Of a stretch of 50,553 bases of DNA, positions 2,831 to 32,959 are shown one piece after another. The position numbers were made by a program, and so were the translations under genes. The notes under the pieces were generated by a model, which saw nothing but the letters and a program-made list of their open reading frames with translations, made no database searches and was not told the DNA's origin. The stretch is from NCBI GenBank assembly GCA_015492495.1, contig WGEY01000017.1, forward strand, positions 1 through 50,553, in the 5' to 3' direction. Numbering within the stretch: position 1 is the first letter of the stretch; each line of letters begins with the position of its first letter. This DNA comes from Deltaproteobacteria bacterium. Lineage in GTDB: Bacteria; Desulfobacterota; GWC2-55-46; DRQE01.

Positions 2831-3316
2831 ATGGTATTCGACCACATCGAGGAGAAGGAGGCCGTAAAGAAGGCGGCCTTGATTGAAAGGAACGGCATCG
2901 CCTTTTACACGCTCATGGCCGAGAAGATCACGGATGAACGCATAAGGCCGGTACTGAAAAGACTCGCGAGCGACGAGAAAAGGCACCTCAAGGTCATAGA
3001 AGAGAAGTTCTTCGAAGAAGCAGGCTTCGGAGACGTGATCGACGAGGAGGAGCTCGAGATAGAGAAGTATGTCGAAAGGCTCGGCACACCGGACATCTTC
3101 ACCAGGAGGATAAACATCGAAAAACTCGTAAGCGCCATAGACGAGCCCAGAAAGGCGCTCATCCTGGCCATGAACACGGAAAGGCACTCCGTGGAGTTCT
3201 TCGAAAGCATGGCCGGCAAGGCTGCCACCGAGGACGGAAAAAAGATGTACAGGGAGCTTGCAGAGGAAGAGAGAGAGCACGTAAGGCACATAGAGGATCT
3301 CCTGAGGCTGGTTTGA
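2831..3316 (+). CDS. Rubrerythrin-like ferritin-fold diiron protein
   Basis: 161 residues forming a predicted four-helix bundle. The diiron ligand pattern is visible: Glu19 in LIERNGIAFY, an ExxH pair at Glu49/His52 (DEKRHLKV), a Glu in the third helix (TERHSVEFFE) and another ExxH in the last helix (EEREHVRHIE). No C-terminal rubredoxin CxxC domain is present, so this is the erythrin-only type, linked in related proteins to peroxide or oxygen handling or iron storage. GGGAGG lies 7 bases before the ATG at 2831. It is monocistronic by spacing. The precise reaction is unknown. Confidence 0.82.
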   Translation: MVFDHIEEKEAVKKAALIERNGIAFYTLMAEKITDERIRPVLKRLASDEKRHLKVIEEKFFEEAGFGDVIDEEELEIEKYVERLGTPDIFTRRINIEKLVSAIDEPRKALILAMNTERHSVEFFESMAGKAATEDGKKMYRELAEEEREHVRHIEDLLRLV

Positions 3317-3609: not shown

Positions 3610-3728
3610 TGAAAATGCATAAAGAGCCCCATCACCGCGGTTCGCCGCATGAACGGGGTATGTCGACCCGATCGAGACTTCCTTGCATCCAAACTTCCCG
3701 GCAGTCCATGCCGCCGGGAGCTTCAAAC
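3610..3728 (+). repeat. Dispersed two-hairpin repeat, copy B, inside an mRNA leader
   Basis: Starts TTGAAAATGCATAAAGAG, then a hairpin with CCCC/GGGG base and CGCGG...CCGC arms, a spacer containing TTCCTTGCATCCAAA, and the end hairpin TTCCCGGC...GCCGGGAG followed by CTTCAAA. It aligns end to end with the copies at 14485, 14618 (inverted) and 45893. It lies wholly within the predicted 5' untranslated leader of the radical SAM gene. Confidence 0.75.
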
Positions 3729-3816
3729 GGGGTTCATTTCGTACCGATCATTGTATGTTGCTATAGAAGTTAATCTCGTCTATTCCTGTGGGCAAAAAAT
3801 ATACGGAGGTTTGACA

Positions 3817-5514
3817 ATGGGCCTGATGCAACGTTTGTTGAAGTCTAACGGAACAGCCGGTGACCTTCAAGATCAAGATCTCATATACCAGCCTGAAACA
3901 ACGTACTCGGGGACGGAAATCCCTCCGGTCAAATTCGACCTTCCCAAGGAAATAAACTCCATATGCCCCGAGTGCATGGAGATCATCAAGGCCACATTAT
4001 ACCCCGAGGGCGGCAAGGTCTGGATAAAGAAGACATGCAAGGAACATGGAGACTTCAAGGACATCTTCTACGGTGACGTAAACCTCTACTACAGGAGCGA
4101 GTCCCTCTGGTTCGGTGACGGCAGGGGCATAGAGGATCCGCCGATAAAGAACGCGACCGTATGCCCGAAGCAGTGCGGCCTGTGCAACATGCACACGAGC
4201 CACAGCGGGCTGCCCATAATGGACCTCACGAACAGGTGCAACCTGACCTGCCCGGTGTGTTTCGCCAACGCAAACGCCGCAGGCTACCTCTACGAGCCGT
4301 CATTCGACGAGGTCGTAAAGATGCTCGAAACAATAGCCAACCAGCGTCCGGTCCAGGCCAACATGGTGCAGTTCTCAGGCGGAGAGCCCACGGTAAGGCC
4401 CGACTTCCTGGACATAGTCAGGAAGGCGCGGGAGATGGACTTCTACTACATCCAGGTCAACACAAACGGCATCAAGATGGCCGACTTCGAGTTCGCCCAG
4501 GCATGCAAGGAGGCCGGTGTAGACAACCTCTACCTGCAGTTCGACGGTGTGAGCGACGATATCTACAAGAAGACCCGTTCCACTCCGCTCTTTGAGTACA
4601 AGATGAAGACCATCGAGAACTGCAGAAAGCTCAAGATGGACGTGATCCTCGTCGTAACCCTCGTCAAGACTTACAACGACCACCAGGTCGGCGACATTGT
4701 GAACTTCGCCATCCAGAACAACGACGTTGTAAGCGGCATAGCTTTCCAGCCTGTCTCCTTTGTGGGGCGCTTCAGCCAGAGCCACAGGCTCGAGAGGAGG
4801 TACACTCTGGCCGACCTCGCGCTGGATATCGAAAGGCAGACCGGCTACATAAAGGCGATGAGGGACTGGTTCCCCATATCCGTCACGCAGGCCTTCTCGA
4901 GGCTTGCGACATCGCTGAGCGGAAAACCCCGCTACACGCCGACACTCCATCCCCACTGCTCGCAGGGGACCTACCTCTACCTGGACAGGGCCGACGGCAG
5001 CGTAAAGCCGATCAGCTCGTTCATAGACATGGACGACTTCCTGAGGGAGCTCATCAGCCTCTCGAAGGAGATAAAGCCATCGAGGTTCGGCCTGCTGTCA
5101 AAGGTCAAGATACTCTACAGGCTCAAAAAGTACTACCATGCAGACAGGGCGCCCAAGGGCTTGACCTTCGAGAGGTTCCTCCAGAGCCTCGAGGGGTACC
5201 AGGACAGGAGCCTCAGGCGTATCTACATCGACGAAGAGTCGGGCAAGGATCGCCATTACGATCACGTCTTCATAGCGGGCATGCACTTCATGGACGCCTA
5301 CAACTTCAGCGAGGAGAGGGTAAGGAGGTGCGTGGTCCACTACACGGATCCGAGCGGAAAGCTCTACCCCTTCTGCGCATACAACGGCGCCCCGGTGTAC
5401 CGCAAGAGGGTGGAGAACCGCTACAAGCTCTCGCCCGAGGAGCTTAAAGAAAAGATTGTCTCCGAGGGAAGGCCCAAGGAGCTCGAGATGATCGCAAAGA
5501 AGATGGGGATATAG
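3817..5514 (+). CDS. Radical SAM enzyme of the Tes / MJ0619-like group
   Basis: 565 residues. The radical SAM cluster motif is CNLTCPVC (Cys141, 145, 148), followed by a SAM-binding SGGEPTVR. Other likely metal sites: Cys50/Cys53 with Cys74/His77 near the N-terminus (rubredoxin-like), CPKQCGLC (Cys116, 120, 123), and C-terminal cysteines in HPHCSQG, RRCVVHY and PFCAYNG. This multi-cluster layout and motif order match archaeal tetraether lipid synthase (Tes), which joins lipid tails by C-C bond formation, and the related MJ0619 group, proposed pterin methylases. In bacteria related proteins have been proposed in membrane-spanning lipid synthesis. The substrate here is unknown. GGAGG lies 8 bases before the ATG at 3817; an in-frame start at 3649 would lack the family's conserved beginning. 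It has its own promoter and a terminator at 5549. Confidence 0.85.
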   Translation: MGLMQRLLKSNGTAGDLQDQDLIYQPETTYSGTEIPPVKFDLPKEINSICPECMEIIKATLYPEGGKVWIKKTCKEHGDFKDIFYGDVNLYYRSESLWFGDGRGIEDPPIKNATVCPKQCGLCNMHTSHSGLPIMDLTNRCNLTCPVCFANANAAGYLYEPSFDEVVKMLETIANQRPVQANMVQFSGGEPTVRPDFLDIVRKAREMDFYYIQVNTNGIKMADFEFAQACKEAGVDNLYLQFDGVSDDIYKKTRSTPLFEYKMKTIENCRKLKMDVILVVTLVKTYNDHQVGDIVNFAIQNNDVVSGIAFQPVSFVGRFSQSHRLERRYTLADLALDIERQTGYIKAMRDWFPISVTQAFSRLATSLSGKPRYTPTLHPHCSQGTYLYLDRADGSVKPISSFIDMDDFLRELISLSKEIKPSRFGLLSKVKILYRLKKYYHADRAPKGLTFERFLQSLEGYQDRSLRRIYIDEESGKDRHYDHVFIAGMHFMDAYNFSEERVRRCVVHYTDPSGKLYPFCAYNGAPVYRKRVENRYKLSPEELKEKIVSEGRPKELEMIAKKMGI

Positions 5515-5548: not shown

Positions 5549-5584
5549 CCCCTTGAGGCATGCCGCCCCAAGGGGTGTTTTTTT
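5549..5584 (+). terminator. Intrinsic terminator after the radical SAM gene
   Basis: CCCCTTG (5549-5555) pairs with CAAGGGG (5569-5575), followed by TGTTTTTTT. It lies 34 bases past the stop codon, before the convergent yjbQ gene. Confidence 0.85.
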
Positions 5585-5592
5585 AAACACTT

Positions 5593-5991
5593 TCACCCGG
5601 GTATCATCTTAAGGAGCACACTCCTTGTCCTTGGCCCGTCGAACTCGGCAAGGTATATCCCCTGCCATGTGCCGAGGACAGGCCTGCCGCCTTCGATGAT
5701 AACCGTTTCGGATGCGCCGAAGAGGGACGACTTTATGTGGCCGTCCGAGTTCCCCTCTGCGTGGCGGTAATCCGGATCGTTACGGTCTATGAGCTTAGAT
5801 GTCTTAGTGGTGATGTCCCGCATCACCGAGGGGTCTGCGTTCTCATTTATGGTAATGCCCGCTGTGGTATGGGGGCAGTATATTACTACTATGCCGTCGC
5901 TCATGCCGCTCTCCAGAACGGCCTTCCTCACCTCCCCGGTGATATCCACGAATTCACACCGCCGGCTGGTGCGTACGCTCAGACGTACCAT
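5593..5991 (-). CDS. YjbQ/UPF0047 family protein
   Basis: 132 residues, the usual size. Family marks include CPHTTAGITINENADPSV, DYRHAEGNSDGHIKSSL and the C-terminal GTWQGIYLAEFDGPR. The fold is small and compact, usually trimeric; E. coli YjbQ has a weak thiamin phosphate synthase side activity but its main role is uncertain. GGGAGG lies 7 bases before the ATG. It converges on the radical SAM gene and is separately promoted. Confidence 0.93.
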   Translation of the reverse strand: MVRLSVRTSRRCEFVDITGEVRKAVLESGMSDGIVVIYCPHTTAGITINENADPSVMRDITTKTSKLIDRNDPDYRHAEGNSDGHIKSSLFGASETVIIEGGRPVLGTWQGIYLAEFDGPRTRSVLLKMIPG

Positions 5992-30145: not shown

Positions 30146-32041
30146 TCATGACGCCGCGCTCGTGTGCTTGCCGCCCTCGCCGAGGAAGAGCCTTACGGAT
30201 TCTACCACACCGTCGCAGTCAAGGCCCAGCTCTGATCTGAGCTCGGCCTGCGTGCCGTGGCCGATGAACCTGTCGGGCACACCTATCCTCTTCACCTCGC
30301 ACCTGAGGTTGTGCTCCTCGAGGAGCTCGAGCACGGCGCTGCCGAAGCCGCCCTGCAGCGCATTCTCCTCAAGTGTGACGAGCCTTCCCGTCCGTCCGGC
30401 CAGATCGAGTATCGTTGTGCCGTCGAGCGGCTTTACGAAGCGCGCGTTCACCACGCATGCATCTATGCCGTGATTCATGAGCCTCTCCGAGGCCTCAAGG
30501 GCCGGGTGCACCATGTTGCCGATGGCAAGCAACGTAACGTCGGTGCCGTACTTGAGCACCTCGGCGCGCCCCAACGGTATGCTCCCGCCACCCTCCGGCA
30601 TCGCGGAGTCGGGGCATGCGCCCCTCGGATACCTTATGGCCACCGGACCCTCGTATCCGACCGCAGACCTCAGGAGGCTCCTCAACTCCGCGCCGTCCTT
30701 GGGAGCAGCGACCACCATGTTTGGCAGGTGCCTGAGATACGAAATGTCAAAGAGTCCGTGGTGTGTGGGGCCGTCTGCCCCCACAATACCGGCCCTGTCG
30801 ATGGCCAGTATCACGTGCAGCCCGTCGAGGCATACATCGTGGAAGAGCTGGTCGTACGCCCTCTGCAGGAAGGTGGAGTAGATGGCCGCAACCGGTATGT
30901 AACCGCTCCTTGCAAGGCCAGCGGCGAATGTCACCGCATGCTGCTCCGCGATACCCACGTCAAAGAACCTGTCGGGGTACCGGGCAGCGAACTTCACAAG
31001 CCCTGTGCCCTCTGGCATCGCGGCGGTGATGGCCACCACCTTCTCGTTCTCTTCGGCAACCTCTATGAGCGAGGAGCTGAAGACCTGCGTGTAGGTGAGC
31101 TTCGATGACCTCTGCGGCTCTCCCGTCGCCGCGTCGAACGGGCCTATGCCGTGAAACAAAGACGGCCTTTTTTCGGCGGGCTGATAGCCCTTTCACTTCT
31201 TCGTGAGCGCGTGTATGAGCACGGGGCCCTTAAGGTGGCTCGAATCCTTAAGTGTATCTATGAGCTCGCCTATATCGTGTCCGTCTATGGGGCCTATGTA
31301 GTGGAAACCGAGCCCCTCGAAGAGCATCCCTGGCGTGAGAAAGGTTATCAGCGAGTCCTCGGCCTTCTTCACTATGCTCGCAAGCCCGCGGCCTATCCTC
31401 GGGATAGACTCTACAAAGGACTCTATCTCGTTTTTGACCTTGGTGGCGAAGCGGCCGGTGATCTTGCGGCTCAAGAACGTGGAGAGCGCACCCACGTTCC
31501 TTGATATGCTCATCTCGTTGTCGTTGAGGACCACTATGATGTCCTTGTCGAGGTGTCCGGCCTGGTTTAGCCCCTCGAAGGCGATACCCGCGGTCATGGA
31601 GCCGTCACCTATGACGCACACGACCTTGTAGTCCTCGCCCCTGAGGTCCCTTGCCACGGCCATGCCCAGGCCGGCCGATATGGATGTGGACGAATGCCCA
31701 GACACCACCGTATCGTAAGGGCTCTCTGAGGGCTTGGTAAAGCCGCTTATGCCGCCGAGCTGCCTCAGGGTGTGGAACCTGTCCTTCCTGCCGGTAAGTA
31801 TCTTGTGGGCATAGGCCTGGTGCCCCACGTCCCAGATGAGCTTGTCCCGCGGCGTATCAAAGACGTAATGCAGCGCAATGGCGATCTCCACCGCACCGAG
31901 GCTTGAGGCGATGTGCCCGCCGGTCTTCGAGACGGTATCCACTATGAGCTCCCTTATCTCGGGGGCCAGCAGTTGAAGCTCCCGGAGGGAGAGTCCTTTC
32001 AGATCACCGGGACCGCTTATCCTGTCCAGTATCCTTTTCAT
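30146..32041 (-). pseudogene. dxs: 1-deoxy-D-xylulose-5-phosphate synthase, in-frame TGA
   Basis: Read straight through, the frame is 631 codons, the full length of DXS, the first step of the MEP isoprenoid pathway. The first part carries the thiamine diphosphate motifs ([21 protein letters not shown] ... LNDNEMSIS); the second carries [17 protein letters not shown] and [18 protein letters not shown]. Between LTHALTKK-type and KGYQPAEK a TGA lies at 31193-31195, where family members have Gly (TKKGKGY). A single change from GGA to TGA explains it. Nearby genes end at TGA, so the code is standard. It may be a nonsense mutation or read error, or two polypeptides: TTG 31159 (AAGG six bases before) could restart. 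Confidence 0.85.
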
Positions 32042-32077
32042 GTCTCGTCCTTTGCCAAGGGGTAGCGGGTCGAGGGC

Positions 32078-32959
32078 TCAGCTCCTACGGTCGACGACGA
32101 ACCTGGCGAGCGCCCTCAACGGGTCCGCCTTCTCGTCGAAGAGGTCGAGGCTGCGGAGCCCCTTTTCCACCAGTTCACAGGCGAGCCTCCTCGACTCCTG
32201 TACCCCGATCAACGCGGGATAGGTCGCCTTCTTTCTCCTTAAGTCGGAGCCGGCCGGCTTGCCCAGCTCCTCGTCCGTGCCCTCTATGTCAAGTATGTCG
32301 TCGGCTATCTGGAAGGCGAGCCCAAGGGCCTCGCCGTACTGCGTGAGGGCCTTCATCCGGCGCTCGTCGGCCCCGGCGATGATGCCGCCGCACCTCACCG
32401 CGGCCAGGATCAACGCGCCGGTCTTGTGTATGTGGATGTGCTCCAGCATGGGAAAGGGGATTTCCCTGCCCTCGGATTCGATATCCACCATCTGGCCGCC
32501 GATCATGCCGGCGTATCCCGCACCGTGGGCGAGCTCGCCCACGACCCTCAGAAGCCTCTCGCAGTCGACCCCCTTGGTATCCGCTATGAGCTTGAAGGCC
32601 ACCGTGAGAAGGGCGTCTCCGGCGAGTATCGCGGTTGCCTCGCCGAAGGCCTTGTGGCAGGTGGGCTTACCCCTCCTGGTGTCATCGTTGTCCATCGCCG
32701 GCAGGTCGTCGTGAATCAGGGAATAGGTGTGTATGCACTCGAACGCACAGGCCGTTGTCAAGGCATCCTCCGGCCTTCCCCCGGCTGCTTCGCAGGAGGC
32801 GAGGACCAAAACCGGACGGACCCTCTTGCCGCCGGCAAAGACACTGTAACGCACGGCGCTGTGGAGGTTCTTGTGGTATCCCTCTTCACGCGGAAGAAGC
32901 CGGTCAAGCGCGCTGTTGACCAGGCCGGCCTTCTCCTCTATATACTGCTCTAAGTTCAA
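32078..32959 (-). CDS. ispA: (2E,6E)-farnesyl diphosphate synthase (polyprenyl synthase)
   Basis: 293 residues. First aspartate-rich motif DDLPAMDNDDTRRG and second DDILDIEG fit short-chain IspA-type synthases that make farnesyl (or geranyl) diphosphate for quinones, undecaprenyl carrier and hopanoids. It precedes dxs by 36 bases on the same strand, so product pathway and transcript go together. A promoter lies upstream. Confidence 0.94.
   Translation of the reverse strand: MNLEQYIEEKAGLVNSALDRLLPREEGYHKNLHSAVRYSVFAGGKRVRPVLVLASCEAAGGRPEDALTTACAFECIHTYSLIHDDLPAMDNDDTRRGKPTCHKAFGEATAILAGDALLTVAFKLIADTKGVDCERLLRVVGELAHGAGYAGMIGGQMVDIESEGREIPFPMLEHIHIHKTGALILAAVRCGGIIAGADERRMKALTQYGEALGLAFQIADDILDIEGTDEELGKPAGSDLRRKKATYPALIGVQESRRLACELVEKGLRSLDLFDEKADPLRALARFVVDRRS

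Follow-up and report, generated by a model that had tools for sequence, protein, structure and literature searches.

A full-length tetraether lipid synthase (Tes) homologue from a groundwater deltaproteobacterium and its probable role in coupling bacterial lipid tails

MJ0619 of Methanocaldococcus jannaschii is the crystallised tetraether lipid synthase (Tes, or GDGT-MAS; PDB 7tol and 7tom). It cleaves SAM twice, abstracts hydrogen from two lipid tail ends, carries a tail carbon on a sulfur of its C-terminal cluster and forms a Csp3-Csp3 bond (PMC9433317). E. coli phosphatidic acid, a bacterial ester lipid, was present in its pocket (PMC9433317), so ether bonds are not strictly required for binding to MJ0619. 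Among bacteria, 456 Tes homologues were listed in 2022 by Zeng et al. (PMC8941075), where the iso-branched termini of C15 chains in bacteria were argued to be like phytanyl ends, and a 2025 Black Sea survey found homologues in 281 bacterial MAGs, including 10 of 262 from Desulfobacterota (PMC11868695). A Tes/PlsAR/Grs route has been proposed for the brGDGT producer Solibacter usitatus, which has homologues of all three (PMC10087280); PlsA converts an ester to the vinyl ether of plasmalogens, and Ger converts an ester to an alkyl ether (PMC11604127, PMC11868695). Bacterial Tes activity is described as unconfirmed (PMC11868695), and the papers found here contain no demonstrated case. The confirmed bacterial enzyme for the tail-coupling step is Mss (PMC11604127), known from Thermotoga maritima, which resembles Tes in product type, fatty acyl chains coupled tail-to-tail. 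A control search of the T. maritima genome found nothing matching the Tes model at E<=1e-80 or the TrsS model at E<=1e-60; the former sets Mss apart as no close relative of Tes.

The protein described here (P0001) adds an intact member to a family whose bacterial homologues were already known (2022, 2025). Its gene lies in the window, by which we mean the whole 50,553-nucleotide stretch analysed (contig WGEY01000017.1 of assembly GCA_015492495.1), with the following features:

3805..3809, + strand: ribosome-binding site GGAGG, 7 nt 5′ of the ATG (sequence)
3817..5514, + strand: tes, tetraether lipid synthase homologue, 565 aa plus stop (NF045702, PDB 7tol/7tom, AF2 model)
3964..4047, + strand: rubredoxin-like iron site C50xxC53...C74xxH77, equivalent to MJ0619 C9, C12, C33 and H36 (residue map)
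4162..4194, + strand: N-terminal auxiliary [4Fe-4S] site C116xxxC120xxC123 plus H126, equivalent to MJ0619 C73, C77 and C80 plus His (residue map)
4237..4260, + strand: radical SAM CX3CX2C motif, C141/C145/C148, equivalent to MJ0619 C98, C102 and C105 (motif, residue map)
4957..4959, + strand: C381, equivalent to MJ0619 C338, presumed ligand of the C-terminal auxiliary cluster (from invariance)
5281..5376, + strand: C-terminal auxiliary cluster segment with M489, C505, Y509 and C520 (residue map)
5564..5577, + strand: terminator-like hairpin with T-run, 3′ of tes (consensus match)

The open reading frame at 3817-5514 (+, 565 aa) was recovered with exactly the coordinates first noted. A longer frame starts at 3649; this start is unlikely, because GGAGG precedes 3817 (the sequence before that ATG is ATACGGAGGTTTGACA) and the N-terminus of the protein agrees with those of its relatives (MGLMQRLLKSNG / MSLIQRLWKSNG / MGLIQRLLRTNG). 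Codon comparison with four relatives gave dN of ~0.15-0.19 against dS of ~0.94-1.3 (dN/dS ~0.12-0.17), as for a real gene under purifying selection. It is present as a single copy in the window's genome, which is rated 100% complete. The layout is monocistronic, with no lipid-gene neighbours, bearing out the original prediction that tes has no operon partner: a rubrerythrin-like gene ends 500 bp upstream at 3316, and a convergent UPF0047 gene (5593-5991) follows downstream, with the hairpin between, although such hairpins by consensus numbered 5 in the region against 2.8 expected. Elsewhere in the window (30149-32959, − strand) a transketolase-type gene lies near a polyprenyl synthetase gene (32081-32959); these are ordinary bacterial isoprenoid genes unlinked to tes.

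P0001 is a full-length Tes family protein. It scores 550.7 bits against the NCBIfam equivalog model for tetraether lipid synthase Tes (NF045702; cut-off 450 bits), matching profile positions 2-484 of 486. Its best PDB sequence match is 7tol (E=1.9e-121), the two proteins being 41% identical across ~490 residues, and it is 48% identical to a Solibacteraceae homologue (L059). Pfam Zn_ribbon_HMPTM matches residues 43-83, over the rubredoxin-like site. By alignment mapping, all the MJ0619 metal ligands named in PMC9433317 are present, and M489 and Y509 correspond to the labile Met439 and active-site Tyr459 described there. Together with C381, C505 and C520, these two are invariant or nearly so across 44 homologues; C381/C505/C520 (MJ0619 C338/C455/C470), the invariant cysteines that remain, presumably ligate the C-terminal cluster. 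SAM contacts are kept at MJ0619 positions Y239, D243, V279, T281, Q311, S314 and R318, the sole change being T273 to V316. The protein thus has its domains in the same order as MJ0619 and keeps the labile Met, the active-site Tyr, the rubredoxin-like site and all three [4Fe-4S] sites; it differs in the residue change just named, in ~40 extra N-terminal residues, in a bacterial host lacking GGGPS and in a substrate that is presumably fatty-acyl derived. A natural ligand variant was noted in a relative from the window's order (L019, G028:C67), whose Tes has Asp in place of the rubredoxin-site His equivalent to H77 (CEKDG versus CKEHG).

An AlphaFold2 model built from 44 homologues (pLDDT 89.1, pTM 0.90) recovers the MJ0619 fold. 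Against 7tom it gives TM 0.80/0.91, next-ranked proteins reaching at most 0.39 when normalised to the query, and Z 44.2 over 486 residues with an rmsd of 2.4 Å; the second-best structural match is MoaA, at Z 19.3.

In a 78-row tree P0001 groups, with full support, among bacterial proteins from groundwater MAGs of 'Deltaproteobacteria' and Nitrospirae, and Dadabacteria are the sister lineage; this clade is apart from that of Acidobacteria Tes, and MJ0619 and the other archaeal Tes group separately. One row (L073) is a wrong-frame ORF on a long branch, and its placement was disregarded. When the tree was rooted with eight TrsS-like proteins from the window's phylum, all Tes formed one clade (SH-aLRT 99) containing both MJ0619 and P0001, and the 31 bacterial Tes formed a clade (99) nested in archaeal Tes, nearest to Thermoplasmatota (node 100). 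This nesting suggests transfer of tes from archaea to bacteria, judged from a quickly built tree whose support is SH-aLRT only (83-100) and which may shift with more archaeal rows. Distribution is patchy: Tes above the cut-off was found in 14 of 39 relatives from the window's order and 3 of 9 in the family, and two of the order's genomes (G028 and G034) have a second tes paralogue from another bacterial clade. We also observed an archaeal-type Tes in a Patescibacteria-labelled MAG (L110:440-1909), possibly mis-binned, and a tes frame split into two ORFs by a frameshift or assembly error (L050:242-1922, the same gene as L023 and G030:C129).

Curated HMM, PDB sequence match, ligand conservation, predicted fold and rooted phylogeny agree on the Tes identity offered in the original prediction. 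The motifs on which that identity had leaned (CPEC...CKEHG, CPKQCGLC, CNLTCPVC and the C-terminal cysteines) are all present and lie on MJ0619 ligand positions, the predicted structure has MJ0619 rather than another protein as its counterpart, and the gene is placed with MJ0619 in the Tes clade and with no unrelated radical SAM group.

We examined the neighborhood of tes in other genomes, and found in the window's own clade no gene family that reliably adjoins it; other downstream genes there include a murein transglycosylase and MoeA. An HpnJ-like B12-binding radical SAM gene lies directly 3′ of tes at two loci (L041, L043) and was rejected as a partner, since it occurs in 37 of 39 relatives and the copy in the window's genome (65% identity) is on a contig (C42) other than that of tes. 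The recurrent neighbors at another locus (L044) are NADH:quinone/Mrp antiporter subunits, unrelated to tes. Two arrangements in other bacteria involve lipid genes:

L071:7971-14056, L081:811-6195, L082:3899-9835 and L094:2938-9542: tes with a PlsA/Ger-like gene (Acidobacteria, Glassbacteria, Phycisphaerae)
L088:4222-15865 and L079:4406-15784: acyltransferase-tes-LolA cluster of the tes paralogue clade, from the window's order

The activase/reductase genes of the first arrangement (BcrAD_BadFG twice plus DUF2229), beside or near tes, plausibly form with it a tetraether or diether gene pair. The second, a run of LpxL-like acyltransferase, tes and LolA in the second bacterial tes clade, is found also at L085 and L102; the cluster in which most genes were scanned (L088) has in addition MMPL exporter, ABC transporter and ketoacyl-synthase genes, and a VTT-domain family occurs at L083, L088 and L102. 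This LpxL-like/tes/LolA/MMPL cluster looks like an outer-membrane specialised-lipid export system with Tes inside. Placement beside plsA/ger-like genes or in lipid-export clusters supports a lipid role for the family; the window's own Tes clade lies outside the LpxL-like/LolA clusters. In the Solibacteraceae MAG mentioned above, the tes-family gene at L059:7983-9596 is followed in tandem by a second one, an ORF of 541 aa, which fits the report of two Tes homologues in Solibacter usitatus.

A PlsA/Ger-like protein is also encoded in the window's genome, by a 1427-aa frame on contig C68, and is 43-44% identical to the tes-adjacent ones. Such a gene is present in 38 of the 39 relatives, with or without tes and so with no co-variation, which makes it a sign of potential and of no linkage to tes; it may instead act in plasmalogen formation or as another kind of acyl-CoA activase. 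GGGPS (PF01884) was not found in this genome, and the sole match in a search for the G1PDH family (PF13685) is 3-dehydroquinate synthase. The PlsA/Ger-type reductase homologue and the lack of GGGPS make a brGDGT or diabolic-acid type of product more likely than an isoprenoid lipid.

Very probably, then, the product of this gene is a bacterial tetraether synthase that couples two lipid tails by MJ0619-type chemistry, on bacterial tails. We take the chemistry from the biochemistry of MJ0619 and infer the substrate: the enzyme most likely joins two (iso-branched) glycerolipid tails, either fatty-acyl or alkyl, at their methyl ends. SAM would be cleaved at the C141/C145/C148 cluster and hydrogen abstracted from the terminal methyl carbon of the first tail, whose carbon would be held by one of the sulfur atoms in the C-terminal [4Fe-4S] cluster (C381/C505/C520, with labile M489); a second SAM would then give a second tail radical that attacks the held carbon, forming the Csp3-Csp3 bond of a membrane-spanning (or macrocyclic) lipid. 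The tails would be bacterial, either iso-branched fatty-acyl chains or alkyl ethers from the genome's PlsA/Ger-like reductase, and the expected product iso-diabolic acid or a branched tetraester or tetraether (brGDGT-type), with no isoprenoid GDGT. The bacterium likely makes membrane-spanning lipids, and the brGDGT role proposed here is like that proposed for earlier bacterial Tes homologues.

Two other readings keep the Tes fold and change the lipid. A substrate of another kind, giving an outer-membrane or specialised lipid or macrocyclic diethers and no transmembrane brGDGT-type core lipid, is unlikely for this protein, although it is what the clusters around the second tes clade (the paralogue of G028 and G034, in the same order) would suggest, and the patchy distribution of tes is in keeping with it; the window's own clade is outside such clusters, and P0001 retains every catalytic and cluster residue, Met489 and Tyr509 among them. 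That the organism makes archaeal-type isoprenoid GDGT in a mixed membrane is very improbable: bacterial Tes does nest in archaeal Tes, and there is a polyprenyl synthetase in the window, but polyprenyl synthetases are ordinary in bacteria, and a genome rated complete with no GGGPS, and with only a dehydroquinate synthase for the G1PDH family, makes an isoprenoid substrate unlikely.

Readings with a role outside lipids are less credible still, and we give both almost no weight. The first places P0001 in TrsS, a radical SAM (seleno)protein family, or in some other radical SAM family related to Tes. The N-terminal zinc-ribbon, auxiliary-cluster and radical SAM portions of TrsS are homologous to those of Tes; the N-terminal 300 residues are common to TrsS and P0001, and TrsS-like proteins do occur in the window's phylum. 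Against the TrsS model (NF045646; cut-off 490 bits) P0001 nevertheless scores 344.4 bits, under that cut-off and over the one for Tes. The TrsS-like proteins, ~400-510 aa in the members examined, match only the first two thirds of the Tes profile (1 to ~304-330, 277-337 bits, versus 471-587 bits for full-length Tes) and separate from Tes on the tree at 99. A pterin (methanopterin) methylase, named as the main alternative in the original prediction, descends from an older annotation of MJ0619 that survives in the Pfam name Zn_ribbon_HMPTM. This alternative falls away, since MJ0619 itself is Tes and the choice between the two is no real one: MJ0619 has a long hydrophobic lipid pocket and makes GDGT in vitro, and the authors of that work were unable to confirm the pterin results and regard the annotation as wrong (PMC9433317). 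Heterologous expression of tes leads to GDGT in both Methanococcus maripaludis and E. coli (PMC8941075, PMC12042123).

A coupling of bacterial tails by Tes remains our preferred account. By itself the window locus adds one protein to the family and does not amount to a new type of system. Bacterial brGDGTs serve as temperature and pH proxies. Their enzymes and producers are unsettled, so that an intact Tes clade in groundwater bacteria provides candidate producers, and the tes-plsA/ger neighbors in other bacteria a concrete, testable pathway. As a wider and tentative proposal, membrane-spanning ether lipids of bacterial type may be made in this uncultured groundwater lineage by a Tes of archaeal origin acting with PlsA/Ger, independently of Mss, after a single transfer of tes from archaea (near Thermoplasmatota) to bacteria and its subsequent spread among bacterial phyla. 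If true, the lineage would be an unrecognised source of branched GDGTs.
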